This document shows positions 3,230-54,600 of a stretch of DNA of 64,000 nt, one piece after another. The notes under the pieces were generated by a model, which worked only from the letters and a program-made list of their open reading frames with translations, made no database searches and was not told where the DNA came from. Each line of letters starts with the position of its first letter. The first letter of the stretch is position 1. The position numbers and the translations under genes were made by a program. The stretch is from Liolophura sinensis (lineage: Eukaryota > Mollusca > Polyplacophora > Chitonida > Chitonidae), in assembly GCF_032854445.1 (NCBI RefSeq), contig NC_088301.1, positions 32,596,402 to 32,660,401 of the forward strand. The letters are read 5' to 3'.

Positions 3230-6080
3230 GCTATGCGACATGGCGTCGAAGCAAATGAGGTCAACCACGTGGAGCCGGAACAGGAATAGGACAATGAGCG
3301 TAAGGATGAATTATCGTTCTTGTTCGGGAACATTGAAGAGTTGAAATCTAAGTTTAATGACTCTGACTTTATTAAGTACATTGGGTTTCAAGGTTCTAGG
3401 CTTTGTTGAAATCTTGTGTAAACATTCCGAAGTCGTACTGTCTGAATTTTTAACTGACTATGTTGCGCTTTGTGTGCCGGCTGTGCAATCTGACCGTGTG
3501 TGTTTATACGTCTGTCAGTGTCTAAATGGTTTACCCCTGTCATCAGAAACCACCTTAGACCATCTTTAATGTAAAGAGTTCATTTCTAAGTCTCGAACGT
3601 GACGTTGTGTACGGCTGTTTATATGTACCTCCACGTAATGCACCCTTTTTACTCCACCGGTAGCGGGTAGGAGAAAAACGGTGTTTTGGTGTTACCTTAG
3701 CGATCTGTCAGTCTGATCCGTTACTGATCTTTGGAGGGGACTTGAAATTATTTTCCAAGACTATTAAGTGTTGCAGATTGCTGTAAAGTGAAAATTTGAG
3801 CGTCTCTCTCAACATTCATGAATGATAGGTATGACCGGGAATGTAGGGCATTGGAAAGGGAATGTAGGCTTACCTTAAAGATGCCTAGAAAGGATCGCTG
3901 CAGCAGTAATCTCTCCGCATATACATCGCTTCGCAATAAGTATAAATCCCGTGGACGATCCAACAAACACGTTAGCAATCGGTAAATGACAAATTTTTTT
4001 GGCCCATACTCCATCGCATTCGCTCCCCAAATCCTCGTAATCCCATACCAAAGCATGAACCGTTTAACTACTTTAAGGACCTGTTTAACGTTAACGTGGG
4101 TCAAGATAATGCATTAGTACATATGAAGATTTAGAACAGCTTGAAAATAATGAAATCCTGAACAGCGGAATTTGTGAGGAAGAAATTGCATTTATGATAA
4201 GTAAATGTAAAATAGGTAAAGCCCCAGGTCTGGACAGTCTCATTGGAGAATTTTTTAGAATTTCTTCCCCATTATGTATGTAATATACGCTGAAACTGTT
4301 CAACCATGTATTTGTCACAGGAGAGTTCCCAGAGGTTTGGAGTTTGGGTGTAATTGTCACCCTGCATAAAGGTGGCGGTAGGAGTGATCCTAGTAATTAT
4401 AAAGGAATCTCGCTCTTAAGTATATTAGGCAAATTAATTACAACAGTTATAGACAGACTGGGCCGAAGAATATAAGGTCTGGACACATTGTCCTTCGGGC
4501 AGTGTCTTTACCATCTTGTCATGTATCCAAAATCATCTCAGTAAATGTAAGGGGAAACGTGTCTCATTTATAGACTATAGAAAAACGTATGATTTAGTTA
4601 ATCGCCAAAAACTGCTGTATCTATTGTTTACACTTGGACTAATGGCAGGGGGGGGGGGGGGGGATTGATTTTCAGTTGTCTCAAGGGTGTTAATAATGCT
4701 GTGAAAGCTTGTGTACTTTGTGCGTCAGATTTAACGGATGCATTTTTGTGCCCAGTCGGTCTCCGTCAATGCTATGTCTTAAGCCCGTTGTTATTTTCGT
4801 TATATATTAATCAGCTAAGTAATGATGTATTTATGTTTGGTAATGATGGGGTTCAACTACTAGTATCTTCCGAGTTTATTCATATATTTATATTTCTTTT
4901 TTTCAGATGACATAGCAATTACTTTACACTCCCAAGGGATTGCAACAACAACTAGACACACTGTTTGATTATTGTCAGAAATGAACCCTCTTTGTAAATT
5001 TAGATAAATCAAAAGTTGTTGTATTCCGGAAAGTTGGCAGGTTGGGTGAAAATGAAAAATGGCGGCTTGGGACACACCCGATGGAAGTCGTACCATCATA
5101 TAAATATCTAGGTGTGATGTTTACTTCTTCCTTAAGTGAGGGTAAATCTGTAGAATATGCTGCCTGGTAGTGGAAACGGACTCCTACTGAGGTGCTGCGA
5201 ACCATGTTGTACCTTGTTGACATGTCATGCGCAGAATTTTTTAAACTGTTTGATACCAAACTATTGCCTACACTTACATACGGCTCCAAGTTATGGGGAT
5301 TCCAAAGGTATGAGGTATGCTAGAAAGAGTTCAATGTTTAGCATGTAAACAATTTTCTACAAACGGGCAAAAGCATCCGCAAGCTGATGACTCTTAGCGA
5401 ATGGGGCTGATTTCCTCTGGTCTGTAATACCTCAGCGTTAAGTATTAGTTAAGAGTTGTGAGCTATATTGAAGATCGATACCCAAAAAAGGCTTAGGATA
5501 TGCTGCTCCATCTGGACTCCCAAGGGAAGCGTAATTGGGCTACCTCTGTTAAGGGAATGTTGTTCAGCCTGGGGTTTGGATATGTGTGGGTACTCAGGGA
5601 GTTGGGGATGTTAGGTCTTTTCTTAGGAATTTTCGTGAGCGACTGCATCATATCTGAAGGCAGGAATGATCTGCATCACTCAAGTCGGGCAGTAGATATG
5701 ACCTCTACTGTGATTACAAAGTCACACGTAAGCCATGTATAAAAAAAAAAGATTTTGGTAAGTTCCGTGAGGGCATTGCGGGCCTTGAAATAGACTGGCA
5801 GGTTTCGTAATACCCCTGCGTGCGAATCTGCTACCGCAGAAATTTGTTCAAACTGGAAACTTAAATCCTTTCAATATGCTCATGTCTGCTAAGAATGTAA
5901 CGGTTTTGAAAGCTCTTTCTGAGTTCATTCATGCAGCCTTAAAATTCGACAAACATTGCTACAGAAGTTGCTGGTGTAATGCATTTGTATGTGCAAATGA
6001 TGGGAATGATCGGAAATGTCTGTTAAATTGTATTCAGACCTGTGGTCTTACATACTGAATAAACTGAATTTGAATTTTAT
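3230..6080 (+). mobile_element. Decayed LINE (non-LTR retrotransposon), endonuclease and reverse transcriptase remnants
   Basis: Broken plus-strand frames carry the hallmarks of a LINE ORF2 in order. Endonuclease-like pieces include YVALCVPAVQSDRV near 3460, VVYGCLYVPP near 3605 and a GGDL strand near 3735. Reverse-transcriptase motifs follow: GKAPGLD near 4215, NYKGISLL near 4395, the FIDYRKTYD block near 4570, GLRQ..VLSPLLFSLYIN near 4765, the catalytic-loop region near 4900 now interrupted, then KYLGVMF near 5100 and LLPTLTYGSKLWGF near 5265. A C-terminal region runs to about 6055, ending next to AATAAACTGAATTTGAATTT. Stops, frameshifts, a poly-G run (4650-4663) and an apparent deletion after the endonuclease show it is dead. 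I do not assign a clade. Confidence 0.8.
4650..4663 (+). repeat. Poly-G homopolymer inside the LINE
   Basis: An uninterrupted run of about 14 G within the reverse-transcriptase part of the decayed element. It disrupts the frame and is prone to length variation or assembly error. Confidence 0.8.
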
Positions 6081-8454: not shown

Positions 8455-11200
<2,746 letters not shown>

Positions 11201-16594: not shown

Positions 16595-19500
16595 TTAATA
16601 GCACATCCTGTGGACAATGCTAGGACCAATTTCATCGTAAGTGTCTTTCCTGACGCACATCTGCATGAAAGTTGGCATAGAAGCAAGCATGGATCCACCG
16701 TACCAGGCGGAACATCTCCTTTCGAGCGGGGTGTTTATTTTGACGCGCATGCCTGTCGGAGCCAAAGAGGTGATTTCTTTCTCCAACCGATCAGCAATAC
16801 CGGGAAACGTCGTTGTGCCACCAGACAAGACCACATTAGCGAACAATCTTTTACGCAAGTCCACGTCGCATTTCATGATGGAATTGTAGGTGGTTTCATG
16901 AATGCCGGCCGTCTCCATACCGAGGAAGGATGGCTGGAATAGGGCTTCTGGACACCGGAACCTCTCGTTGCCAATGGTGATGACTTGACCGTCGGGAAGT
17001 TTGTAACTCTTCTCCAAAGATGACGAGCTAGAAGCCGTGGCCATTTCCTGTTTGAAATCCAAAGCTACGTAGCAGAGCTTTTCCTTGATGTCCCTGATTA
17101 TGTTTCTTTCTTCGGCTGACGAAAGAATAAAACCGCGGTCAGTGAGGAATTTTCGAATAAATCCGTTCAGTTCCCTACCAGCAAGATCAATGTGCGTAAT
17201 ACCATAGGGGAGAGCGTGTCCTTCGTAAATAGGGACGGCGTGGGTGGTACCGTCTCCTGAGTCCAGCACGATACCTGTTGTACGTCCAGAAGCATACAAC
17301 GACAAAACGGCCCCCGTGACAATGTATGTAGCCGGGGTGCCAAACCTCTCAAACATGATTTGCATCATCTTTTCTCTGTTGGCCTTAGGATTTCTGGGTG
17401 GCTCTGTGAGAAGGACCGGGTGCTTTTCAGGGGTAGCGTGCAGCTCTTTAGTGAAGATGTGCTGCCAGATCTTCTCTATATCGTCCCAGTTGGATATGTA
17501 ACTATGTTCAATCGGGAATTTCAAAGCAAGAGCACTTGCTTTACTTATGGCCTCATCCCCAACATAGACGCTCTTTTGCCCCTACAACACACAACGTGAA
17601 ACGAACATTACGTTCAGAGAAAAGCACATTTGCAGCATTTGCACACTCCATACTTATTATTATTGCGCAATATATATATACAAATGAAACCACCGCATTT
17701 GGTAAAGAAAATGTATCTGGCAAACCTCCTGACTTACAGCTGCAGTAGAACTAGCCGGAGCTACAATTCCAAAACGCAACATTTGGTCAAGATCAGCATT
17801 CTTACTCAGCGAGACATATAAGTTTTAGTGCGCTTAGAGAGCCAGAGAAGTCTACGATAACGGCCCGTCACAAAGCTGTCACAACGCTACGTGCCCGCTT
17901 TGAGAGTAGAACAAGAGCAACGACATCACTGCCATACCCATGTACTATGTATTGCATGAACTGTGCTTGTGTGTAACATGGACGCTCCGACTTGGACCAA
18001 ACAGAATTTCATAAAATTCCGAATAAAACTAGAATTGTAAAACAGGAGAGGCCTTAGTGCTATATACATAAATTGACTGTTTTTCATGCCTCTGTTGTAT
18101 CGTGTCGGCCATGTTGTTGGCGCAATGTTCACATGATGTGCACTAGACTCCTCTCCGTGCATCAGAACTGTTTATATAGGTCATGATGCTATTCCACTGT
18201 TATTTGTTCTGGTATTAACTACTGTTAATTAGCTAATTTTGGTAGCTTTAATGATCTGTGTAAAGCAATCCTTACGGGATTACTTTTTCGGTGAGTAGGA
18301 GTCAAAGTACTGCACTGGTTGACCTCAAAGTTATTCTAGGCGCGATATTCGATCCCTACTGCCTATTTTGAGTGAGTTTGTAGAAATTATTACTTAAAGT
18401 ACTGTAATGAAATATGGATTCTGATTCTACAGTCTTTGAAGATTATAGGCCTAGATTTATTTATTTATTTGATTGGTGTTTTACGCCGTACTCAAGAATA
18501 TTTCCATTATACGACGGCGGCCAGCATTATGGTGGGTGGAAACCTGGCAGAGCCCGGGGGAAACCCACGACCATCCGCAGGTTGCTGGCAGACCTTCCCA
18601 CTTACGGCCGGAGAGGACGCCAGCATGAGCTGGACTTGAACTCACAGCGACCGCATTGGTAAGAGGCTTCTGGGTCATTACGCTGCGCTAGCGCGCTAAC
18701 CGACTGAGCCACGGAGGCCCCTGCCTAGATTATGTGGTTTGGAAACTTGCTCCATTCCAGTTTAATAGTGATCACACTGTTTTGGTGTGATCTCCACTTG
18801 GTCGTTACGAATCACCGCCATGTTTGGCTACTCGTTAGTTGATTGCGTCATTTGCACCTAAATGAACCCAGTTATGCTCATTGCACACTCTCTACATGAA
18901 ACTGTTTGCTGATATTGAAACCTACTAGTAAACACTACTAAATTAAGTGGTTTTAAAATTTAAACATAATTTAATTAGCTTTACCGAGCCGTTTTAGCAG
19001 AAATTTAGCGTTGGTTGGTCATATGACCTAAGGGTGTAAATTGAGGTTTCCTCGGTGTATTTCGCGGATGTCAGTCTGACCTCAGATGTGTTCGGATATA
19101 CCTCTACCCATAAGGTGTGCATCTCGAGGTTTTCCTATATTAAATAGCATCTTTAATATAGAGAATTATATGGAATAAAGAATTATATTTGATTACTACA
19201 CATACATAGAAGGCCAATGTGTAGCTTTAGCCTAGACTATAGCATGCTGAATACTATGGGGTATTATGACTATGCTGTACGAGTGTTTGCCTGGCCTGTT
19301 AACATCACCACACTTGCAGTTATACCATTGATTTGTATGTGGTCATGATATAACTATTTACTATCTATGTTTATTGCTGTCTTTCTTTGGGCTCAGTTTG
19401 GCCTTGAATAAATCCTGTTGTCGTTTTAACTGAGAAAAAGTCTTGTACAAAATTTGATAGCAGGCTTAGTGGCACGTAGTGATTTAAAGCGCTGAAGCAA

Positions 19501-28918: not shown

Positions 28919-29001
28919 TATATATATGTTTGTAATGTTTAAGACACCTTTCAAATCAATAGAACTTATGATGCAGGTTACACGAGAGATAAAAGCTTAC
29001 A

Positions 29002-32000
29002 ATGGGAGAAGTAGATCACAGGAGGCAGGTTTTACAAGCTGTCTTCAAGACTTATGATGAGTCACAGTGTGGAGAATTAACAGCTCAACAGTTACAGAGA
29101 CTGCATGGGGACTTAAGAATGGGTGGAGTCAGTATGCCTCAGGTTAGTGACTTGATTTACTGTACTTCATGTAACCTCCAGTTTAGTGACTTGATTTACT
29201 GTACTTCATGTAACCTCCAGTTTAGTGACTTGATTTACTGTACTTCATGTAACCTTGTTGACCTTTTTTAAGTGAAGCATTTTGCTTAATTCTGATGATT
29301 GATTCATCCATCTTAAGGGTCCTTTTAATCAGAAAAACTTCAGTGTTGGCATTAACAGTATCATTTTAAAGCCTTAATATCCTTCTAAAATTAGGCCAAA
29401 CTCTAGTACAATAGAATGACCATGGCCAGTATTAATGATAGAAAAATTATGTTTACCAGGCCATCCTTAACAAATTGTTCGTTGAACATAACCTGACCCT
29501 ATTGTTAGAAAAAGGAGTGATGGTCAGTATGGAATTTACTGTTTTTTTTTCTTTTTTTATTTTGGCTATAAACAAAGAAGATGGGAATTTTAAAGAAATT
29601 AACATGCAGACAAAAAAAAAACATTTAGCAAAGCTTCTCTGGAATACTGAACTTCATTTAAACTCACTCTGTGAGGACTGACAAAGATTTGGTGTAATGT
29701 TCCAAAATTCAGGCAGGCCTTTTGGACTTAAAAAAATATTTTAACACATATTGAGATAAATAAAATATTTACATGTATATAGTTACACACCAAGCCATCT
29801 TCAAAAATGTGTTCATTGGGTGTAACATGGCCAGCCCTCTGAGACAAAGCCCTACATTGGATTTTATTAGTGGGATTTTGATAAAAGTTTATAATTTATT
29901 TTTCTCTCAATGTTAATATCTTTAAAATGTGAATTCCCTATCCTTTTCATTAACTAGAATGACGAGGAAAGAAAGCAAAGAGTTCCCTACCAACTGTGTT
30001 TTTTTTTCTGATATGTTTTTCTGTTAGTTTAACCTTATCCAGTTCTGGAAAAGATGTCCATGATATGAGATGTCTCATATGGCCTCTTTATGGCGTAATA
30101 TATATGGCGACTTGCTTTTCTTTCAAAACTGATGACTAACCATGTAGGACATGTATTTTTTTTTACAACATTCAGATTCACTGAAAACAACAATTCAGAC
30201 ATGGACTGTATGTTATGTTTATTTATTTCAGTGTGGTTTTAAACTCAAAACTACTCTGGCATGTAGGTTCAATTTCAAGTTCATTTTTTTTCACCCCTTG
30301 TCACTCAGGGTGGCCTATTATTTCCTGTAGGCCTATGCAGGATTATCATTGCTTCTTGTATGAACTTACACACATTATCATATATAAGATCTTTTTGCTC
30401 TCGGATTGAAATAAGTTTTGAAAAGTAAAAACACTCTCTTGATTGTATATTTTCAGATACTAGTATATGCTGAAATTATTTATGCCTGTATGGTCTATCA
30501 CTCACTACCATTGATCTTGTACAGGTGAAGGCAGCCATGAGTTATGTGTGCTTAGACGACTGGACCTGTGACTCCTTTGAGCTGTATGAGGTCCTACAGG
30601 AGCTGGATCGACGTTACTACCTCATACAGGACCTGCGCTGGGAATTCTCCATGTTAGACAGGACTCAGTCCAACACCATCTCTGAGGAACAGGCCAAGTA
30701 TGTTTGCTGTAACCAGTTTTACAGGACTTAAATATAATAAACTAGGTGATATTTTATTATCAATAATTTAATGTACATTCCCCAACCCTCATCTGCACAT
30801 CGCTTTTGACTTAAGGGATACATGAAAGGCTTGTTTTGTAGTTCTTAATATAGACATGATGGAGTTAAGAATGTGGCATAACATATAAAAACTCTCCGGC
30901 CATACGTGAGAAGGTCTGACAGCAACCTGCGGATGGTCATAGGCATCCCCTGGGCTCTGCCTGGTTTTTCCCCATCATAATTCTGGCCACCATCATAGAA
31001 GTGAAATATTCTTTCATTTGGTAAGGAAGCTAGTATGAGATGGCCTTGAATTCACAGCGACTGCATTGGTGAGAGGCTCCTGGATCATTACGCCATGCTA
31101 ACACGCTAACCAAAGATGCCCCGGTCAGTCAGGTGTTAGCATTGTGTTCTAGTGAGGTAGCACGATGTGGCTTATGGCATTGGGGACCATGAAACAATGT
31201 GGTTTTGAAGGCGATGTTAAGCCTTAAGTAAACAAACAAATCATATTTCTGGAATTTTTTAATGTTGTATAGTGGGGTGCAGTTCTCTTAATGATTTGTT
31301 TTTTTACTTCATTAATTAGATGGTTAGTCCAGGCAGTGCATGGTAGGTACTTTTCCAACCGACGATGGGAAAAGTTTTTAACCAGTCGGCTTATCCCAGG
31401 TGGTGGAGTAAGTTTTGGTGAGATTGAGGTCATGCTTTGCGAAATCCCAAGTAAGCTTCAAGTGGATCACGAGTTACAAGAGGCAGAAAGAGAAGAGGAA
31501 GGTGAGAACTTTTTATTTAACTTTAATGGCTTTCCTTTTACCATGGAAATCTCTTAAATTATTCTGATCAAGAAACATTCATGATATTTGGACAATACCT
31601 CTCATATTTTACAGATTATTAATTTGTCTTAGAATGATTATAATTCAGAAGATAATCTGAAAATTGAAAGTTTACTGCAGGTGGTTATTGCTTCTTCTTT
31701 TTTTTCTGTCTGGGGATCCAGGCATTAATATTTGATTGGTGTCTAATTTCTTTGTTACACAGATCTGTACTTTCCTTCCCATAATTGTCATTGTGAACAC
31801 GATGGGAATTGGTGTAATAGTACTTTTTAAATTGCATGTCTGTTATGAAATGAATTGTTTTGTGTTTAAGCCAAACGTAAGAGGCAGAGAGAAATAGAGA
31901 AACTTGTTCAAGAGGAGAAAGAGAATGAAAGACTGAAGAGAGAGGAGCAGGTACATTTATGAAGTTTATTATTTTATTACCATGACAAAAGAGTCTGCAG

Positions 32001-35000
32001 GCACCCTCTCTGGTTAATTTGGTTAAGGTAATTCATCCGCCCCCCCCCCCCCCCCCCCCCAATACCCCACCTCCCCCCAAAAGTTTGCTTGTTCAGTTGC
32101 AACTTTAAGTCAGAAGGTTTCCCAGGAAACTGGTCACAGGCACTGGTGTGCTGCAGTTTCGACCAACCATGAACATGAACATTGTCATATATTAAGCGAA
32201 TTATAAAGCCTGAGTATGACGCTAAACACCAAGAATGATTTATTCTCCTGAGTGCATTTAAAATGAGTCTGAAACTGCAATGTAGCAGGAAGAATTTTTG
32301 AGGTTGAACGGTTGGAAGGTACCTGTTCACACGTAACAGCATTTATGTTTTCCTAATTTAGGCCTGAGCAGCATGTTTAAAGAACTGTTCTGATGTTTTG
32401 TAGGCTAAAAACAAACATAAAAGACAGCTGGAAGAAGAAGGTTTGTATGATCACATTTCATATGTTATTTGAAATATGGCAGAAAAGGACCGAAGTGAAT
32501 GAATCCTGATGTTATAGCGCCCAGTTGGCAATACTCCAACCATATCATGGCATTGTACTGATTCTGAAGCAATACTGAGCAGATCCAAAATCAACACCAG
32601 TTTATATAATACATACCTCAGTTAAAATTCCAAAACCACACTGACATTTTTTATAATAGACAAAATTGTATATAGTAATGTATGAAAGCTATGTTATATA
32701 ATATAGGGCAGTAGTTTTCAAGAAATGAATATTAACAGCATCGTCAGCAACTCTGCCAAATAAAACTGTGTACAACATTCTAAATAAATTTTTTTTTTGT
32801 ATCTTTTGTGATATTTTTGTGCTATCTTTCACCATATGTGTTATGTATTATTAACAAATTGAAATACCGCTGTACAAGTGAAATAAGCTGTTTTATGGCA
32901 TCGACGCCTCTCATATAAACGTGCATCTAACAGAAACATGATATCTGTTGTCTTTGCCTTAATCAGAGCAACTTGCAAGAGAGGAAGCAGATCATCAAAG
33001 GAAATTACAAGAGAAGGTGAGTGATATAATCAGCAATTTATAATCTGTAAATACCTGTAATTAGTAAAAGCTACATGTAAGAAGTATTAGATGATTAATG
33101 AACTGATTGTACTCACATATGTTTGCATTTGCTGACTTGATTTAGGTTTTATGAATTTATTAAAGAAATGGGATGATTTGAAGCATTTGTGTTGAGAAAA
33201 TTTATTTTTGGAGAATGTGTAGAAGACAATTTGATTAATGCCATGCCGATTTTGTGTATGCTTGGAAATGCATTCTCAGCCATTTTAAACTGTTTCTTTT
33301 GTAAATTACTCAGAAGTAAGTTTAAGTACAAATTTCATAATAAAACATCTCATTTTGTTGGATAAAAATCATGCAATGTTTTCAAAGAAGAGTCTGACAG
33401 ACCCTGTATCAATTCCTGGAAAATGACATTATATGGCTTGAAACTGATTATTATGTATGGTTAATTATTGCTATAATATGGATGACACAGTGGTAATGTG
33501 TAGTGATCTGAAATGTACCATTTAATCTAACCCTTAAAGGATGTATCATTACTTAATATCCTATTTTATTATATGTACTAACATATAAAAGTTCAAAAAA
33601 TTCTCAGCCTTTCTTTTGGTGCGTAACAATTGCTTTTAAAGACAGCCTTCTTAAGGCCCCTGCAGTTAGTCTGAAAATTATGTAGCATGCAACTGTGGCA
33701 TCATTGGTGATAGCTGTCAAAACAACTATGTCAGGGTACGGGTGGGCATCGATGGGGGTGGGTACAAAACTGGTCCGCCTATAAAAGTCTGAAAATTTCC
33801 AACCATTGATGGAAATATTCCTGGCAGAGTAGATAAAACAAAAATTATTTGGGCATGGTTTTCTTTGTTTTCCATATAACAATAAACCTTATTTTAGATT
33901 TACTTTTCGTGACATTTTACTGAGTTTTGCTAATTTAAACAATGTAGACCACTTTGATTTCATCTGATGTGGAAGAAAAATATCTATTAATGCCTTTTAT
34001 GCTTAGTATTACACCTCATTCTTCCTCTGATCGTATTGCACCCTATCTTTATTTCCCTGTACTGACAGCATGCAGTAGTAAGGGCTATTAAATTTATACC
34101 AGAGAACCAGTGTGTGCAAAAGGAATGCATGATGAAATGCCATCAGGTAAGAAGGGTATGGAAGCTTGAAACATAGGGCCCAGTGGTGTTTGTTTTTAAT
34201 GTTCTTGTCGTCCTTAGGAAGAAGAGGAGGAGGCGCAAAGGCTGAGAGAGCTAGAGGAGCAGCAGAGACTGGAGGAAGAGAGGAGAAAGGCAGTGGAGGA
34301 TCAGCTCTATCACAATGTGGAACATCTAGCTGCAGTGAGACATTCTTGATCCTCATTCTCCTCCTAAACTCTTTAAGTGCTCAGCTTCTTCCAGAGGCAT
34401 TTATGAGCCAGGTTGTTGTATAATAAACAATAACAGGAAGATTACGTATGGATAAGAACTTCTTGGTTTATTTGTAGTAATTTTTCTATGTGCTTGTAGA
34501 TCATAATGTCATTTTTAAACCAATGCCTGAAAACAACATTAGGGCCTGTATAGAAACATTATTACAAATAAAACAAGACGTTGTTAATTTTACTGTTTCT
34601 TAAGTACTATTTGGAGCTAGGTGGGTTTGATTGCCGATCAGCTCAAAGTTATACGCTCTATCAAAGGTCTTGGTTGTCTGTCGGCTCAGAGCTGTGTGTT
34701 GGACAAAGGCCTTGATTGTCTGTCAGCTCAGAGCTGTGTGCTAACCAAAGGCCTTCATTGTCTGTGAGCTTAAAGATACGTGCTGAACAAAGGTCTTGAT
34801 TGTCTGTCAGCTCAGAGCTGTGTGCTAAACAAAGGCCTTGATTGTCTGTCAGCTCAGAGCTTTGTGCTGAACAAAGGTCTTGATTGTCTGTCAGCTCAGA
34901 GGTGCGTGCTGAACAAAGGCCTTGGTTGTCTGTCAGCTCAGAGCTGTGTGCTGAACACAGGCCTTGCTTGTCTGTGAGCTTAAAGCTATGTGCTGACCAA

Positions 35001-38000
35001 AGGCTTTGATTGTCTGTCAACTCAAAGCTACGTACTGACTAAAGGCCTTGATTGCCTGTCAGCCCAAAGCTACATGCTGAACAAAGGCCTTGATTGCCTA
35101 TCAGCTCATAACTATGTACTGATCAAAGGCCATGATTTTCTATCAGTTCATAAAGTGAAGATATGTTAATAGATACAGCATTCTGTGGCTTATACGTGGT
35201 TAACCTCAACTAATTTATTGTCTCTTGAATCAATTAGTCATAACATTACATCTGTACTTGTTGTATTTTATCATGAATAGGAGGAAGCTGAGAAAGAAAA
35301 ACAGGCTGAGACAGACTTTCAAGATGCTCAACAGCGCAAGCAGAAGGCACAAGACGCTAGAAGCAAGAAGGAAGCGGAGACAGATGAGAAGGATGCTGCT
35401 CAGAGAAAGTCAGGTGTGTTCACTTTTTATAGAAAAGGCCATCTGAATTGAAAACTGAAGCACTGTTTTGTTTTTCTAAATTTTCTTTAAAGAATTTAAT
35501 GCATTAAAATATTCGAATTTTAAGGCTGTGCACTGTTTTGTTTTTCTAAATTTTCTTTAAAGAATTTAATGCATTAAAATATTCGAATTTTAAGGCTGTG
35601 CCTCAAATTCATAATGATAATGGGTGGAAATCTGACCAAGTGTACAGAAACATTGAATCAGTATATTTGGTTAAAGTCAGTTAAGTAGTTCAAAACATTT
35701 TAGAGTAATAGTAAGAGCGCAGTGACCCATGAACCTCTCACCAATGACTGCTTATGCTGTCTTCCTCTCAGGCTATACATGAGAAGGTCTGCCAGCATTG
35801 TGCGCATGGTCATGGGTTCTGCTTGGTTTCCTCCCACCATATGCAGGCCACCGTCATATAAGTGAACTATTCTTGAATACTGTACAAAACACCAATCAGA
35901 AAAATCTGATGCGGTCAAGACATTATGGCAAGTGTATAAATGAAGCTCATGTTCAAAATTCACAAAGGAAGTCATTGTTCAAGTAAGTTTTTAGGAAATT
36001 TAATGAGCCCAGGGGAACCTCGTGAGCAGTTCACCTGTAAGTTGTGATCAAAATCAGTCCTTTGCGCAATTTTAGAGGTACTCAAGACACCAATAATGTT
36101 CCTTTGTGCCTATTTTTTTTTAAAATGGGATTATTGCGTTATGGGATACATGTACATATATCGTGTTGACAGAACGGCAATGGATGCAGGCTTCGAAGTT
36201 TGTAATAGCTTATATATTGTTACTCCAAGTGCCCTGGGCCAGTCCAGCTGTCAGATTTTATTCAAGACCGATTACATGTGCCTACACTTAATCTGTGAAT
36301 TTGTTAAAGTGGTGTGGCTACAAATTTATCAATTATTTGGTGAACGAGGGATATGGGATTATTAATCACTTACTGGAAGTTTCATTTTGCGCCTGACTTT
36401 TTACGGAATATCATATGCTGAGAGCTGAGAGTTTAGTGAAGAGCTGTGTGTGAATCTGAACCTCATTATCCTGTTATCGGGGATCTTTTTACAGCGCATT
36501 TTGTTCTTGTTTTGTTTATGTACAGATCACAGAAGGAAGCGGATTCGCTATGATCTTAAGGTGGCAATTAAAGCAAGGGACAAATTTCACCTTCAGCATT
36601 CCATTAAAGAATTCTCAGATGAGCAACTGGAGGATCATGAGATGGACTTAATGAAGGCTGAACGTTTGTTGAGAGAATTAACAGCTGGGGATAGTAAGTA
36701 GACGTTGCTCAAGCCCCCCCCCCCCCCCACTCCCCACTATAATACAGCAATATGGAGTTGATTATAAACATCAGGGAGCTGATTCAACAAAGTTATTAAT
36801 GACTCAAGTCAAAATTTGATGTAAAGCTGGTTTATGGGCCCTAGAAATTTGAAGTTTTTACTACCTCATAAATGTTATGTGAAAATAAATGTGAGAATTG
36901 CAACTTTCAGTACAACCAAGAGTCATCAGAAAATGGCAGATTCCTCTGGACTACTCAATAGATTGATTGCAAAATAACATCATCAGCAGCATCCTCTGTG
37001 CCTTATGGGCTTATATTAGGGTCAGATTTGTATACAGGGTGGTGGGAGGTGTGGTATTATATTGCCCTCCCACTCAGCATACATATGTGCTATAGTGAAA
37101 GTTGACGAGACACATCAGCAAGATCTATGAAAGCTCAGAGATCTAAGTGCATATGGTTTACAAGTATAATTCAGACAACAATGATTTAGACATGTAAACC
37201 AGGACTTGGACATGGAGAGATTATTGTATAACTCCAAAAAAACATTCACTATCAGTATCTACAAGTACCTTGTCTATGTTCAGAAGGCAAAAACTCTATG
37301 TGGCCAACCCAAATACCACATTCACATCCTCACATGGCTTCTGTCTTGCCTGCAAAGTTTTGTGAAAGTCAGAACATACATGTACATGTAACTGTAGGAG
37401 GAGTTGTGTGGACTAACTACCTACAAGTCCCCATTCTATGTTTAAAGGGTAATAACTCTGGAAATAGTTGATGCGACAAAATCCAGATAGCACTTGCACA
37501 TGCCATGTCTACAAAGTGAAAATCCATTCAAAACTGTAGGATGAAGCGAGTTGACACAATAATAATTAAGGAATCCACTCACATTACATATTCCCAAGGA
37601 ATAAAATCTAAATATTGTGTCAAAAACTTCAGTCAGAAATAACTTTGTGGAATCCACCCTTGTGTTTGATCGGTTTCTTTGTTGGCAAACCCTCAAGGTT
37701 CTAACAGCAGGTTGTCCATTGCTGACATACATGTATTTATAGCGTAATTTTTGAATTTGATGTCAATGTGGAAAGTTGTCCTATAACAAGTTGGTCAAAG
37801 CTGTGTACTTTTTTGTGTTTCCATAACACCTAAGTTTCTGCATAGTTGAGTTAATGAACCTGCAGCCTAACAGCAGAAAATGATGTGTTTTTATACAGTT
37901 TGGAAGGAGCCTGTGTAGGAAAGAAATGTTGAACAATCATGCCGACTGACCAACTGTCTGAAGAATTACTAAGCAACACAGCAACCTGCACTGTCATTTT

Positions 38001-40718
38001 TGGGTGTTTTACAGATCTCAAGCGAGCAATGACTCAGCGAGAAGTCACAGAACTTGAGAGTGCAATAGAAACTGTCAAGAAGCACGGCTTGGAGGCAAAT
38101 TTGGCAAAGGAAATGATTGCTGCCCACAAGATGCTGGGTCGTTTGCGGCGCCTTGAGCGTATTCGCCATGAGATTCTGGAACTGAAACAAGCAACTGTAG
38201 CTGAGATTCGAAGTTATCAGAATCCTCCAGAAGTTGTTCACACCGTAATGACCTGCACTTTCCTGTTGCTAGGTCACCCAGAAAAAGAAACTAAGGTAAG
38301 AGAGTATACATAGCCTCAAGGTTTATCAAATTGCACTCCACTTTCGAGAGAAACTAGACAGAATTTTAAAAATTATACAAGGATACATTAGAGAACTGAC
38401 ATAATGGTCGGGTTAATGGGTTTAAATGAAGTGTTTTCAAAAGGAAAATCATTGATAATATCCATACCATTTGGCTTAATATGTAAGGTGAGTGAGATAT
38501 GATACTAAGTAAGGCAGTTTTGCTTGAACAATGTCAGTTTCGGTATGGCTATAGCTTTTGTGTGACATCTGATAGGATCATGCAAAAGTGAAAAAGATTC
38601 ACTTTTGACACTATCATTTGGTATAAAAATTGTGGTCATTTGGGTATAAGTTCAGGTTACTTCATAGATGAAACTATTTTAGCTCAGATTAGTCTACTAA
38701 AAGGGTGCCCAAATTAAAAAGCTGGGTTTGGCCCTGTAGATAGTGAACAATAACATCTGTGTAGTCAATAAAATCTCTTGTTTGTCTCTTGTGTAAGATC
38801 TGGAAAGCTGTACAAGCCCTGGTAGGAAAGACTGGGAAGGAGAGCTTAAAGAGACGATGTCTGGGCTGTGATCCTGGTAGTCTAAATCCATCAGCTACAG
38901 CACGTGCTAAAGCACTGCTCGACAAACACGAATTGGATGAGGTCAGGGACGTGTCAGCTGGAGCAGCTACCTTCTATGTTTGGGTGAGGCAACACTATTG
39001 TCACTGCACTAGTGAAGTCACTTTTTTACCCTAGACGAGTCATATCCCTCTTGGGGTTTTTTTCCAGGTAACATAACAATAAGCACAAGGTGAACTGTGT
39101 ATGGAAGGAGTAGAATTATGTTTATCTTGTGTCTTCATCGTATGACTTTGTCATCCTTTGTCAAGGTGTCAAAGCTGCTGCAGATTCAAAACTGCAAGGT
39201 TTTTAATCAGGAGCCAGTCAGCTGCAAAGAGATATGTCGCTTTTACATGACACCAGGTTGTTTTGTGTTTTACGGGTGAGACAACACCAAAAATTCCAAA
39301 AATGGAATTAAAAAATCTTCAAAATCCCTATTTTTATTTGTCCAAAATTTTATATTGTACAAATGTGTCTTCAAGAGAAAAAATTGCAGGGACAGTCAAC
39401 ATTTACCACAAGTCAAATGATTTTCTCTTTTTTTATTTTTAATTTTATGTCCTCCAACATTAGGAAAAGATTTATTCTGCAAGTACAACAACAATTTAAA
39501 TTGATGTGGCCTTAAAGACGCCAAACATTGAACGATACTGTGCAGCTCTAGGTAGCAAGCTGAAGGACAAATAGAACTCAATTATTGGAAGGGTCGTATT
39601 TTAATCTGTGCTCTGATTCATAAAAGGCTATTACAACACCAAATTTTTAGTATAGCATGCAAAAACTGATCGTGATGTCATTGGCTGCAAAAGTTATCAG
39701 TAAAGCTCATGAAACATGCCTCTGCCAGCAACCTGGACTGCAGATGGTCGTGGGTTCCCCCGAACTATGCAAGGTTTCCTCCCACCATAATGCTGGCCAC
39801 CATAGTATAAGTGAAATATTCTTGAGCTCTGTGTAAAACAGCAATCAAATAAATGAAACATGCCTCAGAGTTCAAACACTCGATGGAGTTTTATTTATAA
39901 ACTTTGATAAGCAAGGTATTTCCAACCGTTGTCTTTCTTCAGCATTGGCACTGACCTGATAGCACCTGGAAGATTGTACCAACAATTCTATTGCATGGTT
40001 ATAACTCTAGTGTCTAGGTGGCATATTTTTTAATCCCTGAAGTATGGCTTGCAGAGTACTTTTAAGAATAGTGTGAAATAGGACCTCGAGCCATTGTTAG
40101 GTCCAAAAATTTATTATAGCAAAATGTCTGCAATGTATTAGTTTCTTCTGTAACATCATTATGTCTTTATTGTGATAATGATGACGTCATAATGATGAGC
40201 TGAGAAACGAAAGTATGACGATAATAAAATGGCGTCAAGGTGCTACTGTTGAGCGTTTGACAGGTCCCTATGCATCATGTATCATTGAAGCTGTGGAATC
40301 ACATCATGATGAATGATGAATTAAAGTATTCACATTCTTACAGAAATTATAAAGTTGATTTAACTTAATGTTTTTTTATGTATATATATTCTATACTTTT
40401 CAGTGCATAACAATGATAGAAGAAGCAATAGAGGTGGCCAAGCAAAAGGAAGAGGAAAGGTTAAACCCCAGATTAGTAGAGACACCTATGGCCAAGCCAG
40501 CGGCAGCAGCTCCAAGCAAAAGACCCGCTCAGACCAGGAACAGTGGCCCGAAAGGACAGAGACAAGCCAGGTCGCACAGCACAGGACGCTCTGGAAATCG
40601 CAGGAGCACATCCAAAACACCGGAACGCAGTCTTGTGCAAGAAAAGATGAACAAAGTGGCCGCAGCACGCCAGGAGTCTGAAGACGTAAAACGGAAACAA
40701 GCTGAAGAGGGACTGTGA
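29002..40718 (+). CDS. EF-hand, coiled-coil protein with a dynein-stalk-like microtubule-binding domain, 12 exons
   Basis: Exons: 29002-29142, 30525-30697, 31320-31501, 31871-31950, 32404-32440, 32967-33016, 34218-34334, 35281-35413, 36526-36693, 38015-38295, 38798-38983, 40404-40718. All introns are GT-AG and all phases join, giving 1863 bases and 620 residues. Residues 1-165 carry degenerate EF-hand loops (for example DESQCGELTAQQ, DRTQSNTISEEQ) with several calcium ligands lost. Residues about 155-430 are a charged coiled coil rich in E, K, R and Q. Residues about 424-530 resemble the tip of the dynein heavy-chain stalk: IRSYQNPPEVV and the FLLLG helix, a W-K-A-V-Q-A-L segment at 456, then AGAATFYVWCITMIEEAI returning into the coiled coil. 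The PP-to-W spacing (about 85) matches dynein. Residues 540-620 are a basic S/R/K-rich tail. No AAA+ motor is present. A microtubule- or cilium-associated role is inferred. I cannot name an orthologue. Confidence 0.82.
29140..29254 (+). repeat. 39-bp triplication spanning the exon 1 splice donor
   Basis: Three direct copies start at 29140, 29179 and 29218. Copy 1 reads CAG|GTTAGTGACTTG and serves as the donor. Copies 2 and 3 read CAGTTTAGTGACTTG, so the GT is lost. The unit is 13 codons long and open in the exon frame, so intron retention would add three near-identical 13-residue repeats before a stop at 29269-29271. Confidence 0.9.
29143..30524 (+). other. Intron 1 of the EF-hand/dynein-stalk gene
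   Basis: A phase-0 intron of 1.4 kb, AT-rich. Apart from the donor triplication no repeat or exon was recognised. Confidence 0.75.
30698..31319 (+). other. Intron 2 with a chimeric SINE
   Basis: The intron holds the 3' half of a SINE in plus orientation followed at once by the 5' half of a SINE in minus orientation (30893-31126). The rest is AT-rich without features. Confidence 0.7.
30893..31126. mobile_element. Inverted chimera of two SINE halves
   Basis: 30893-31020 is a plus-strand body and 3' part (CTCCGGCCATACGTGAGAAGG ... AAGTGAAATATTC) with no (AAAT)n tail. 31023-31126 is a minus-strand head (its reverse complement begins CCGGGGCATCTTTGGTTAGCGTG). The junction looks like an inversion or 5' inversion event. 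Confidence 0.7.
31951..34217 (+). other. Introns 4 to 6 of the EF-hand/dynein-stalk gene
   Basis: Between the small exons at 32404-32440 and 32967-33016 the sequence is AT-rich. A poly-C tract lies at 32040-32060. A fragment of repeat family 4 lies at 33595-33790 in the intron before exon 7. No further exon is required, since the phases already join. Confidence 0.65.
34627..35152 (+). repeat. 42-bp minisatellite in intron 7
   Basis: About 12 copies of the unit GGCCTTGATTGTCTGTCAGCTCAGAGCTGTGTGCTGAACAAA, degenerate at both ends. The unit is a multiple of three, so long open frames appear on both strands, including 119 codons on the minus strand with a 14-residue period. Confidence 0.93.
35461..35600 (+). 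repeat. Perfect 70-bp tandem duplication
   Basis: 35461-35530 and 35531-35600 are identical over 70 bases, inside intron 8 just after exon 8. The identity implies a very recent event or an assembly artefact. Confidence 0.92.
35708..35900 (+). mobile_element. Family-1 SINE, degraded
   Basis: GCAGTGACCCATGAACCTCTCACCAATG, TGAGAAGGTCTGCCAGCA, CCACCGTCATATAAGTGAACTATTCTTGAATAC and ACACCAATCAGAAAAA are recognisable. It lies in intron 8. Confidence 0.75.
36694..38014 (+). other. Intron 9 of the EF-hand/dynein-stalk gene
   Basis: A phase-1 intron beginning gtaagtag, with a poly-C run at 36712-36728 and tandem TACATGTA octamers at 37377-37390. No exon or element was recognised. Confidence 0.65.
38984..40403 (+). 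other. Intron 11 of the EF-hand/dynein-stalk gene
   Basis: A phase-0 intron within the dynein-stalk-like segment, between Trp516 and Cys517. It contains a SINE 3' fragment (39719-39860). Confidence 0.7.
39719..39860 (+). mobile_element. Family-1 SINE 3' fragment
   Basis: CTGCCAGCAACCTGGACTGCAGATGGTCGTGGG, CCACCATAATGCTGGCC, AAGTGAAATATTCTTGAG and CAATCAAATAAATGA. The head is missing. Confidence 0.82.
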
Positions 40719-51684: not shown

Positions 51685-54600
51685 CTATACAACACAGCCA
51701 CACTCGCCAACCACCAATTCCATATCTTGTTTGATGACGTTTTGTCTATCATCCATCAGAAGCATTGACACCCGCCTCATCTTGGTCGGTGCACAGCAAG
51801 TCTGTAAATCTGTATGCAAGGCCTCTTCGAGCGCAGGGTTCGCAATGGAGTGGATGTATGTCTTCAGCAGGTTAGAATGATGAGTGTTGATGCCTGGCAT
51901 ACTTCTTGCTGCAGGTAAGACATTAGAATAACCTGTTACGCACAAATATACGTCTCTGGATTTTTTTTTCACACATACCGTACAGCACACAGTAGCTCTT
52001 ACCCAAAATTACTGGAAAAGTTTACAGAACTGAGAAATGTTTCTCGCCCAGGTACGCTTGTAACCGCAGCTTGCCAAGGTGAGTTTATGACAGAGCTTTT
52101 ACACCAATCGGCTGACAACTCCCTCTGTGTCTGTGTAAATTTAATGACAAATTCCGACATGACAATGGTGGGCTTGTGAATGCACGGTATTCAACCGTCA
52201 ATTCTTAGATAAATAGATTGATGGTTGGTGTTCCGATATTCACCGATAATCTACTCAAGTTTTCACTAAAACGACAGTGGTCAGGTTTATAAATGGAGGA
52301 AACCGAAGTTCCTGGATGAAAGCAAAGTGTCCGCAGGAAACCAAAGAGCCCCGAGAAAACCGAAGTGCCAGAGAGTAAACCAGAGACTATTGCTAGATGC
52401 CTGACAAAAGCGCGAGCGTCGGAAGCAGCAGAAATTGTCAAAGCTTAGACTATACAGCGCTAAAGTGTGATTGTAAGTGTACTTTAAGAAGTTTTTCACA
52501 TATACGATAACAATGGGCTTTATGAGCGGGGAAGGTCGGATTTCGCGGAGTAAACTACCGACCGTCGGCAAGTAACTGATAAACTTTCCCACACGTGGCG
52601 AACACATGTGCACATCATATTTGTGGAAGACAAGTGGTTTTCAAAGAAAGTACAAACGGTCACACCAGCATCTTCGACAGGTTGTTGGCGTCCAGGGGCT
52701 GTGAGAGCCCAGGAATCTACAAATTCCCTGTCCTAGGCCGGGCTCTATTAACGATCGAAAGGCAAGGGCCTTTAACCCCTAGATGTAAGACGATTTGAGT
52801 CGAAATGTTGGAGTGAAGGAGGCAACTCTCTTTAAACTGAAGTGTTACATTTAACACTGTGAGTATCACGAGGAGTGACCGCACTTACATGATAGCGAAT
52901 TACATGTATCTGACCAGTTTTATTACGACTTAATGTTTAAACACTCTTCAAAGGTGTTCACATTTCAACTCTATTAAAACTCTGTTTCAATGGTTGGTTT
53001 ATGATGTTGATTAACCAACTTTTAATGCAGTTGAAATGTGAACACTTTGACGAGTCTTAAAACATTAACACTTTATAAAAGTGGTCAGATAACTCGTATA
53101 AGTGCAGTCACTCCTCATGATCTTCACTGTGTGAAATTCAACATATTAGTTTTAACGGTGAAATGACATTACCATTGCCTCACGTATAGTATGAGAGATG
53201 TATTTACTTATTGTTTATTCGGGGCCTCCGTGGCTCAGTCGGTTAGCGCGCTAGCGTAGCGTGATGATCCAGGAGTCTCTCACCAATGTGGTAGTTGTGA
53301 GTTCAAGTTCAGCTCATGCTGGCTTCATCTCCGGCTGTACGTGGGAAGGTTTCCAGCAACCTGCGGACGGTCGTGGGTTTCCCCCCGAGCTCTGCCCGGT
53401 TTCCTCCTACCATAATGCTGGTCGCCGTAAGTGAAATATTCTTGAGTACGGCGTAAAACACCAATTAAATACATAAATAAATACTTATTGCTTATTACTG
53501 TGGAATGAAGAAAAAGGCGACTTTTCTCACCTGTTTCGCAGGTACCGCGACAAAAACTTGGTTCAAAAGTTTTGGGAAAGATAATCCAGTCTCCCCAGCC
53601 GATTTCCTCGAAGTCGATCTTTAGTTTCTCCTTACAGCACACCTTGTTCCGTGAGTGGCAGTAATCTGGGAGTCCCCTCGGCACACGATGGCGTTCCGAG
53701 AAACGCACAATAAGCACAGGTCGAGTCTCGCTTGAAGTGGCTATTGGTGTCAGACGATGCCGTCCCGCTTTGCACGTCTTGCAGAATATCTGTAGTCCAT
53801 AATTTCGGTGTGGCTTGTCCAGCCAGAAATCCACGGTTTTCCGCAGTTTGAATTTAACCCAGCCGTGTCTGTCTGTTTCGAGGGCGTCGACCACCTGTCT
53901 TAGCTGAGGACGGTTCTCATCCCCGGGCTCCTCCAGTTCGTAAACTACCAAAGTATGGTTGTAATGATCCTGGGGGTCGAACTCCTTGTACACCCACAGT
54001 TCTGCAGAATCGGCCCTTTGGCCGGAGTACCTACCCAGATCAAAGCTCACGCATTTAGCAGTTTTTTGCGGACAAGCCAGCAGCTCTGCAAGGGAAAGAA
54101 GTCAAAGTGATGCTCATGCTAGGCGGAAGTTATTTCCAAGCTAAAAGGTTGGAAGACTGTTGATATTGCTTGGACGAATGAAGAAGTGTTCTTTGCACTT
54201 ACTTTTTACTGATTTCCCTCAAAACTGTTCATCAAGATTAAACCAAAGCGATCAATGAAACATAAAAATACTATGCAGGCCGTAAAAAAGTGATTTTCTA
54301 GTCTGACTGATTCTTTCCGCCATATAGTTTGGTGATGAAAACTTTAGCAATTTTCTTCTAAAAAATCCACAGCACCGATCAAATGGATATTTGGTGTGCT
54401 GTTATGCAAGGACGATGAATTCCAATGAAATACAGAAGCTTGCAAATGTCATGTGACGTCACGTTATGACCTATTTTTGAATTTTAAGTTTACAAGTATG
54501 CAGTTACATGTAGTTTGTCTTACTGAACACGACTAGGTGATCTATTCACATAGCTTCAATACCCTATAATTCTATAGTTTCTATAAGAGCCTTCTGAACA

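Follow-up and report, generated by a model that had tools for sequence, protein, structure and literature searches.

A chiton gene predicted to carry a diverged dynein microtubule-binding tip on a protein without a motor

The microtubule-binding tip of dynein is worked by the motor ring through the stalk (PMC6629372). Can such a tip be carried by a natural protein that has no motor? The question is raised by a gene of Liolophura sinensis in the 64-kb stretch of DNA analysed here (the window), which lies on a contig of 60 Mb (C7) in a genome of 609 Mb and 632 contigs. The encoded protein of ~72 kDa appears, from its sequence, to begin with a degenerate EF-hand module and a long helix of high charge, to go on with a diverged dynein-tip homologue and to end in a basic tail.

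Rebuilding the gene from the sequence gave 12 exons, whose 1863 bases (stop included) specify 620 residues (Table 1). All 11 introns are GT-AG, the spliced frame runs without an internal stop to a single stop codon at its end, and an in-frame TAA (28990-28992) lies three codons upstream of the ATG at 29002. Base composition is typical of coding sequence, with a G+C content of 0.60, 0.37 and 0.46 at the three codon positions and of 48% in exons against 36% in introns. The first-pass annotation had proposed the same 620-residue model, with which our independent rebuild agrees, and as a prediction this gene model is firmly grounded in the sequence. The join between exons 9 and 10 is predicted from splice sites and phase only, and the frame of exon 10 is open upstream from 37933, with an in-frame ATG at 37939 as a possible alternative start. 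The model could fuse two genes or forms: one would encode the EF-hand and charged-helix parts and end near exon 9, the other would be a short tip protein whose start is the ATG near 37939. We regard such a fusion as unlikely, since a good donor (GTAAGT) lies 3' of exon 9, the acceptor TTTTACAG lies 5' of exon 10, and the phases of the two exons match, although chance would produce a match in one case out of three.

Table 1. Coordinates of the predicted gene and of its parts in the window.
Feature	Position	Strand	Observation
Whole gene	29002-40718	+	12 exons, one open frame once spliced, GT-AG introns throughout
Exons 1-6	29002-29142, 30525-30697, 31320-31501, 31871-31950, 32404-32440, 32967-33016	+	
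Exons 7-12	34218-34334, 35281-35413, 36526-36693, 38015-38295, 38798-38983, 40404-40718	+	
Exons 1-3, putative degenerate EF-hand module, residues ~1-150	29002-31501	+	Pfam scores, loop letters
End of exon 3 to exon 9, putative charged helix 151-305, then helix-like 306-360	31320-36693	+	Composition
Exon 10, residues 361-454: predicted lead-in helix, EIRSYQNPP motif, tip part one	38015-38295	+	31.4 bits alone against dynein tip profile
Exon 11, residues 455-516: predicted tip part two, IWK to FYVW	38798-38983	+	Co-linear with dynein tips
Exon 12, residues 517-620: predicted short return helix, basic Pro-containing tail, stop	40404-40718	+	Composition, proline positions

Several repeats lie within the introns. 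Three near-identical 39-base units (29140-29255) begin at the splice donor of exon 1, so that the surroundings of this donor are repeated within the intron. Intron 7 holds a 42-base minisatellite of 11.6 copies (34662-35150), and intron 8 a perfect 70-base duplication (35460-35601). Elsewhere in the window we observed two actin-like single-exon open frames, one of 334 residues at 10196-11200 on the forward strand (Pfam Actin E 1.7e-133) and one of 328 residues at 16595-17581 on the reverse strand (E 2.8e-114). Both lack the first ~43 profile positions, and upstream exons or a retrocopy origin are possible. An exon at 53325-54101 on the reverse strand encodes a TGF-beta propeptide and the beginning of a TGF-beta domain. 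The 16-base word GAAATATTCTTGAGTA occurs 16 times in the window with at most two mismatches, where 0.10 occurrences are expected (e.g. 14064, 28868, 53433), and is probably the end of an interspersed repeat.

Residues ~407-530 are very probably homologous to the microtubule-binding tip of dynein, from which they have diverged. In the layout of the protein, the tip is assigned to residues 424-516. The motifs from which the likeness had first been read by eye were found where they had been reported, Pro-Pro at 431-432, IWK at 455-457 and Trp at 516, the Trp lying 84 residues beyond the second Pro (about 85 had been claimed). The Pfam MT model (PF12777) matched an isolated 177-residue fragment at 12.6 bits (E 0.071), below its cut-off of 24, and gave no listed match with the whole protein. 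A phmmer search of PDB with the same fragment returned 24 sequences at E ≤10, comprising 16 dyneins, 6 cytochrome P450s and 2 others; the top twelve were all dyneins or dynein tip constructs (two of them under other names), the best with an E of 0.0019. With the whole protein as query the dynein matches weakened to E 0.4, and the 11 sequences found at E ≤1 were 8 EF-hand proteins, 1 ribosomal RNA-processing protein and 2 dynein tips; this search brought up only dyneins and EF-hand proteins as relatives among solved structures. Two dynein-sized PDB chains that match dynein tips, 9fqr_Hl and 9fqr_Xx, carry the names radial spoke head protein 9 homolog and putative malate dehydrogenase 1B, probably because the entry or the database copy is mislabelled.

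Profiles built from dynein tips gave a clearer signal. With a profile of six dynein sequences, from which the query was excluded, the protein scored 38.0 bits and the fragment 361-540 scored 41.1 bits; the best score among 20,000 plain and 20,000 block shuffles of that fragment was 11.8 bits (16,727 plain and 17,369 block shuffles were listed, the remainder scoring too low for listing). The hhalign program gave a probability of 96.6 over 109 columns, with an E of 4.8e-10 for this single comparison. Since some of the six dyneins were the query's own best matches, the profile test was repeated. A dynein profile without DNAH6 and DNAH10 still gave 23.0 bits (E 8.8e-5 at Pfam size), and a profile of 11 dynein tips from the same genome, chosen by their Pfam match and independent of the query, gave 33.7 bits (E 4.5e-8 at Pfam size). 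Profiles of single sequences yielded E-values, again at Pfam size, of 0.00024 for DNAH6, 0.074 for cytoplasmic dynein, 0.25 for the Chlamydomonas sequence and 0.3 for DNAH2. A six-frame scan of 2,904 pieces of the window at E ≤10 found two pieces only, exon 10 at 30.8 bits and exon 11 as a weak match at 4.3 bits (E 6.5). The signal is uneven, exon 10 alone reaching 31.4 bits and exons 11-12 alone 5.3 bits, a score equalled by 8 of 5,000 shuffles. When exon 10 was held fixed and exons 11-12 were shuffled, the real total was reached in only 2 of 5,000 cases, and the exon 11-12 half therefore adds signal.

These observations bear on the possibility that the likeness is a chance one between helical sequences. 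The weak Pfam MT match and the E-values of 0.07-0.3 from the DNAH2, Chlamydomonas and cytoplasmic sequences would be in line with chance, but the shuffle controls, the detection of the protein by multi-dynein profiles and an alignment that crosses two introns in order make this explanation extremely improbable. The domain likeness noted in the first-pass annotation thus extends, by phmmer, hhalign and the tip profiles, over nearly the whole length of the tip. Of the Pfam hit that had been expected there, the part that stands is the significance of tip-only profiles; the Pfam MT model falls short of its cut-off on its own, and a lack of any significant hit was not the outcome.

We then come to the motor. 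A dynein-type P-loop pattern had zero matches in the six frames of the 64-kb window, and in 144 kb (the window and 40 kb on each side) its one match was on the minus strand, spurious-looking and near stop codons. Loops interrupted by introns escape the pattern, and a 28 kb control around the host DNAH10-like tip yielded one of dynein's several loops, that of AAA4. The predicted protein ends 104 residues past the last tip Trp, where a dynein would continue into CC2 and AAA5, and the AAA+ ring with P-loops of a dynein heavy chain is absent from it. A recognisable motor part is lacking nearby, and the non-motor architecture claimed earlier is in agreement with both scans. It might still be proposed that these exons belong to a motor gene for a dynein heavy chain, or are what is left of one, given that the tip most resembles the host DNAH10-like tip. 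Besides the P-loop results, three observations speak against this and leave it with very little probability: the EF-hand-like exons and the basic tail with its stop occupy the places of AAA4 and AAA5, the genome contains a distinct DNAH10-like locus (L012), and the spliced frame is uninterrupted.

A Pfam family search of the genome at E ≤0.001 identified 23 dynein places, with zero in the window. Fourteen of the host places were rebuilt (L002 and L010-L022) and 11 of them were used for the profile and the tree, some of these tips having doubtful splices near the second helix; L014 and L019 are partial tips used for pairwise scores only, and L018 was left out on account of doubtful splicing. 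In pairwise scores against 17 host and PDB tips or tip parts, L012 was the best (31.1 bits), followed by DNAH6 (25.3 bits). FastTree and IQ-TREE both joined the query to L012 (support 0.80 and 83); its branch measures 1.9 and 2.2 substitutions per site in the two trees. The assignment of L012 as DNAH10-like rests on a comparison by eye with the letters of the PDB DNAH10, and a DNAH10-like nearest tip is a weakly supported placement; since the columns are few and the branch is long, the DNAH10-type affinity should be read as a lead only. Intron positions shared with host dyneins were also considered, and a phase-0 intron of L013 fell close to intron 10 of the query in a home-made spliced aligner. 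Nothing is drawn from it, since some of the introns made by the aligner were doubtful, and among these were wrong introns beyond exon 10 of the query. The host dynein L002 (G000:C1:14960646-14961791) has its stalk region in an open frame of 690 residues, as against at most 190 in the other listed host matches.

The tip was compared residue by residue with 15 dyneins (11 host, 4 PDB), with columns numbered by mouse cytoplasmic dynein and R3382 anchored in VNRAS; under this numbering, positions 3289, 3298 and 3378 carry letters that agree with PMC4987762. P3311, P3312 and the basic residue at 3306, each found in 15/15 dyneins, are kept in the query, as are E3304 (10/15), S3384 (13/15) and W3393 (13/15). 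K3298 is Lys in the query and in 6/15 dyneins. According to PMC4987762, K3298 and R3382 had earlier been proposed to form salt bridges with tubulin, and in the simulations reported there the K3298 bridges were not found and 3382 bound to alpha-tubulin. At this last position the query has Asp, with Arg one residue before, and the residue is basic in 9/15 dyneins; the host DNAH10-like tip reads Arg-Ser at 3381-3382 against Arg-Asp in the query. At K3299, R3337 and R3342, which we take to be microtubule contact positions, the query has Gln (Lys in 9/15 dyneins), Gln (basic in 12/15) and Lys beside an insertion (basic in 3/15). The predicted contact positions are mixed and only partly kept.

The boundaries of the tip differ as well. 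The proline at the CC1 boundary is Arg in the query as against Pro in all 14 dyneins with a letter there, and P3409 at the CC2 boundary is Glu as against Pro in 15/15. Pro 538, in RLNPRL, lies six residues after the P3409 column and may be the displaced counterpart of the CC2 proline. In PMC6629372, 'universally conserved proline residues' serve as bounds of the tip domain. The tip is followed by ~20-28 helix-like residues, forming a slightly acidic return helix, with no long return coil or CC2; the long antiparallel stalk of dynein, with CC1, CC2 and boundary prolines, is not present. The first-pass annotation had spoken of a stalk or stalk mimic, which has to be given up in favour of a tip without a stalk.

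Outside the tip, residues 1-161 scored 23.3 bits with Pfam EF-hand_6 (cut-off 25) and 22.5 bits with EF-hand_7 (cut-off 30), the scores being lower with the whole protein. No curated EF-hand cut-off was reached, and the canonical 12-residue loop pattern had no match. The two EF-hand-like loops that are seen, 19-30 and 92-103, have Gln as their last residue, which makes calcium binding doubtful. The degenerate EF-hands described earlier can be retained as an EF-hand-like module, with the reservation that its scores lie under the Pfam cut-offs. Residues 151-305 contain neither Pro nor Gly, are ~70% E/K/R/Q/D and have few hydrophobics, a composition, and it is composition only that was used, more like that of a charged single helix than of a classical coiled coil. 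The coiled coil said to flank the tip is accordingly limited to the N-terminal side at most, where it looks rather like this helix, and is not found on the C-terminal side. A helical repeat in 306-425, suspected by eye, was discarded, with 553 of 5,000 shuffles scoring equally high. The tail (residues 541-620, 80 residues) has a net charge of +10 and contains Pro.

What might such a protein do? Our preferred reading, to which we give a probability of roughly 0.5, is that the protein has neither ring nor motor and serves for microtubule docking or as a linker. The tip would derive from a dynein heavy chain, which may have been of DNAH10 type, and would have been placed on a new carrier. Since the AAA+ ring is absent, ATP could not switch the tip, which would act as a static docking module. 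It would sit on the microtubule with the basic tail assisting, while the charged helix would serve as a spacer and a partner would be bound at the EF-hand end. The protein would most likely act in cilia, as a linker or tether, a setting to which the sequence points solely through the axonemal type of the tips nearest to it. As PMC6629372 describes the tip as permanently primed for binding, with H1 as the main moving part, a ring-less binder is conceivable. We infer microtubule binding from the Pro-Pro pair, basic 3306, S3384, W3393 and K3298, all of which are kept, and from the basic tail; the changes of K3299 and R3337 to Gln and of R3382 to Asp, the acidity of the return helix, the absent CC1 proline, the absent or displaced CC2 proline and the Pfam MT score below cut-off count against it.

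The chief rival, and a serious one, is that the dynein-derived fold has lost microtubule binding and is now a protein-protein interaction domain or a structural helix cap. The very long tree branch (about 1.9 and 2.2), the non-basic residues at K3299, R3337 and R3382 and the missing or displaced boundary prolines would all fit such a loss. Yet host dyneins vary at these places too (Lys at 3299 and a basic residue at 3382 in 9/15 each), the DNAH10-like tip itself has R-S where the query has R-D, and the core residues are kept, so that we rate loss of binding as possible rather than probable. Returning to the docking reading, a wider version of it may be put forward tentatively: a ring-less tip captured by an EF-hand/charged-helix carrier might work as a constitutive, ATP-independent module for docking on microtubules, marking or bridging the sites where dynein binds, and would represent a new class of non-motor microtubule-associated protein.

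If true, a natural ring-less tip protein would show that the tip is a separable module, and it would allow one to test how far tip affinity depends on stalk register and on the boundary prolines. The protein could compete with dynein arms or mark their sites. Similar EF-hand/tip proteins may occur in protists, and an annotated orthologue may well exist. Searches of open-licence papers brought up none whose title or displayed abstract describes a non-motor protein with a dynein tip or stalk. Searches of the collections viral_contigs and genome_contigs with the tip protein gave 1 and 31 pattern matches with 0 relatives, and the query-dynein alignment gave 5 pattern matches in viral_contigs, with 0 relatives of the query. 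DNA patterns had 0 and 0 matches in viral_contigs, and the one match of a DNA pattern in genome_contigs, a Paenibacillus stretch, was taken as chance. These are virus and prokaryote collections, and the lack of relatives in them says little.

Three known systems invite comparison. The dynein heavy chain tip (PF12777 MT) shares with the query the order of lead-in helix, EIRS..PP, Trp and return helix, at 26% identity in the hhalign alignment and 20-26% to four dyneins in the multiple alignment. It differs from the 620-residue protein, which has neither AAA+ ring nor long stalk, has its boundary prolines missing or displaced and three contact positions changed, and bears additional residues at two places, between the first helices and ahead of the DEVRDVS part. 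Residues ~12-114 weakly match neurocalcin/GCAP-type EF-hand proteins (phmmer E 0.016, neurocalcin delta), but the solved members of that type have only 193-199 residues as against 620, and the loops here end in Gln. A parallel to the wider docking reading would be SRS-MTBD, in which a dynein tip has been fused to seryl-tRNA synthetase in the laboratory (PMC6629372); the protein would be a natural counterpart of these fusions. The fusions are engineered, with 12 stalk heptads in fixed register, whereas the query has hardly any return coil; common to both is a non-motor protein that carries a dynein tip.
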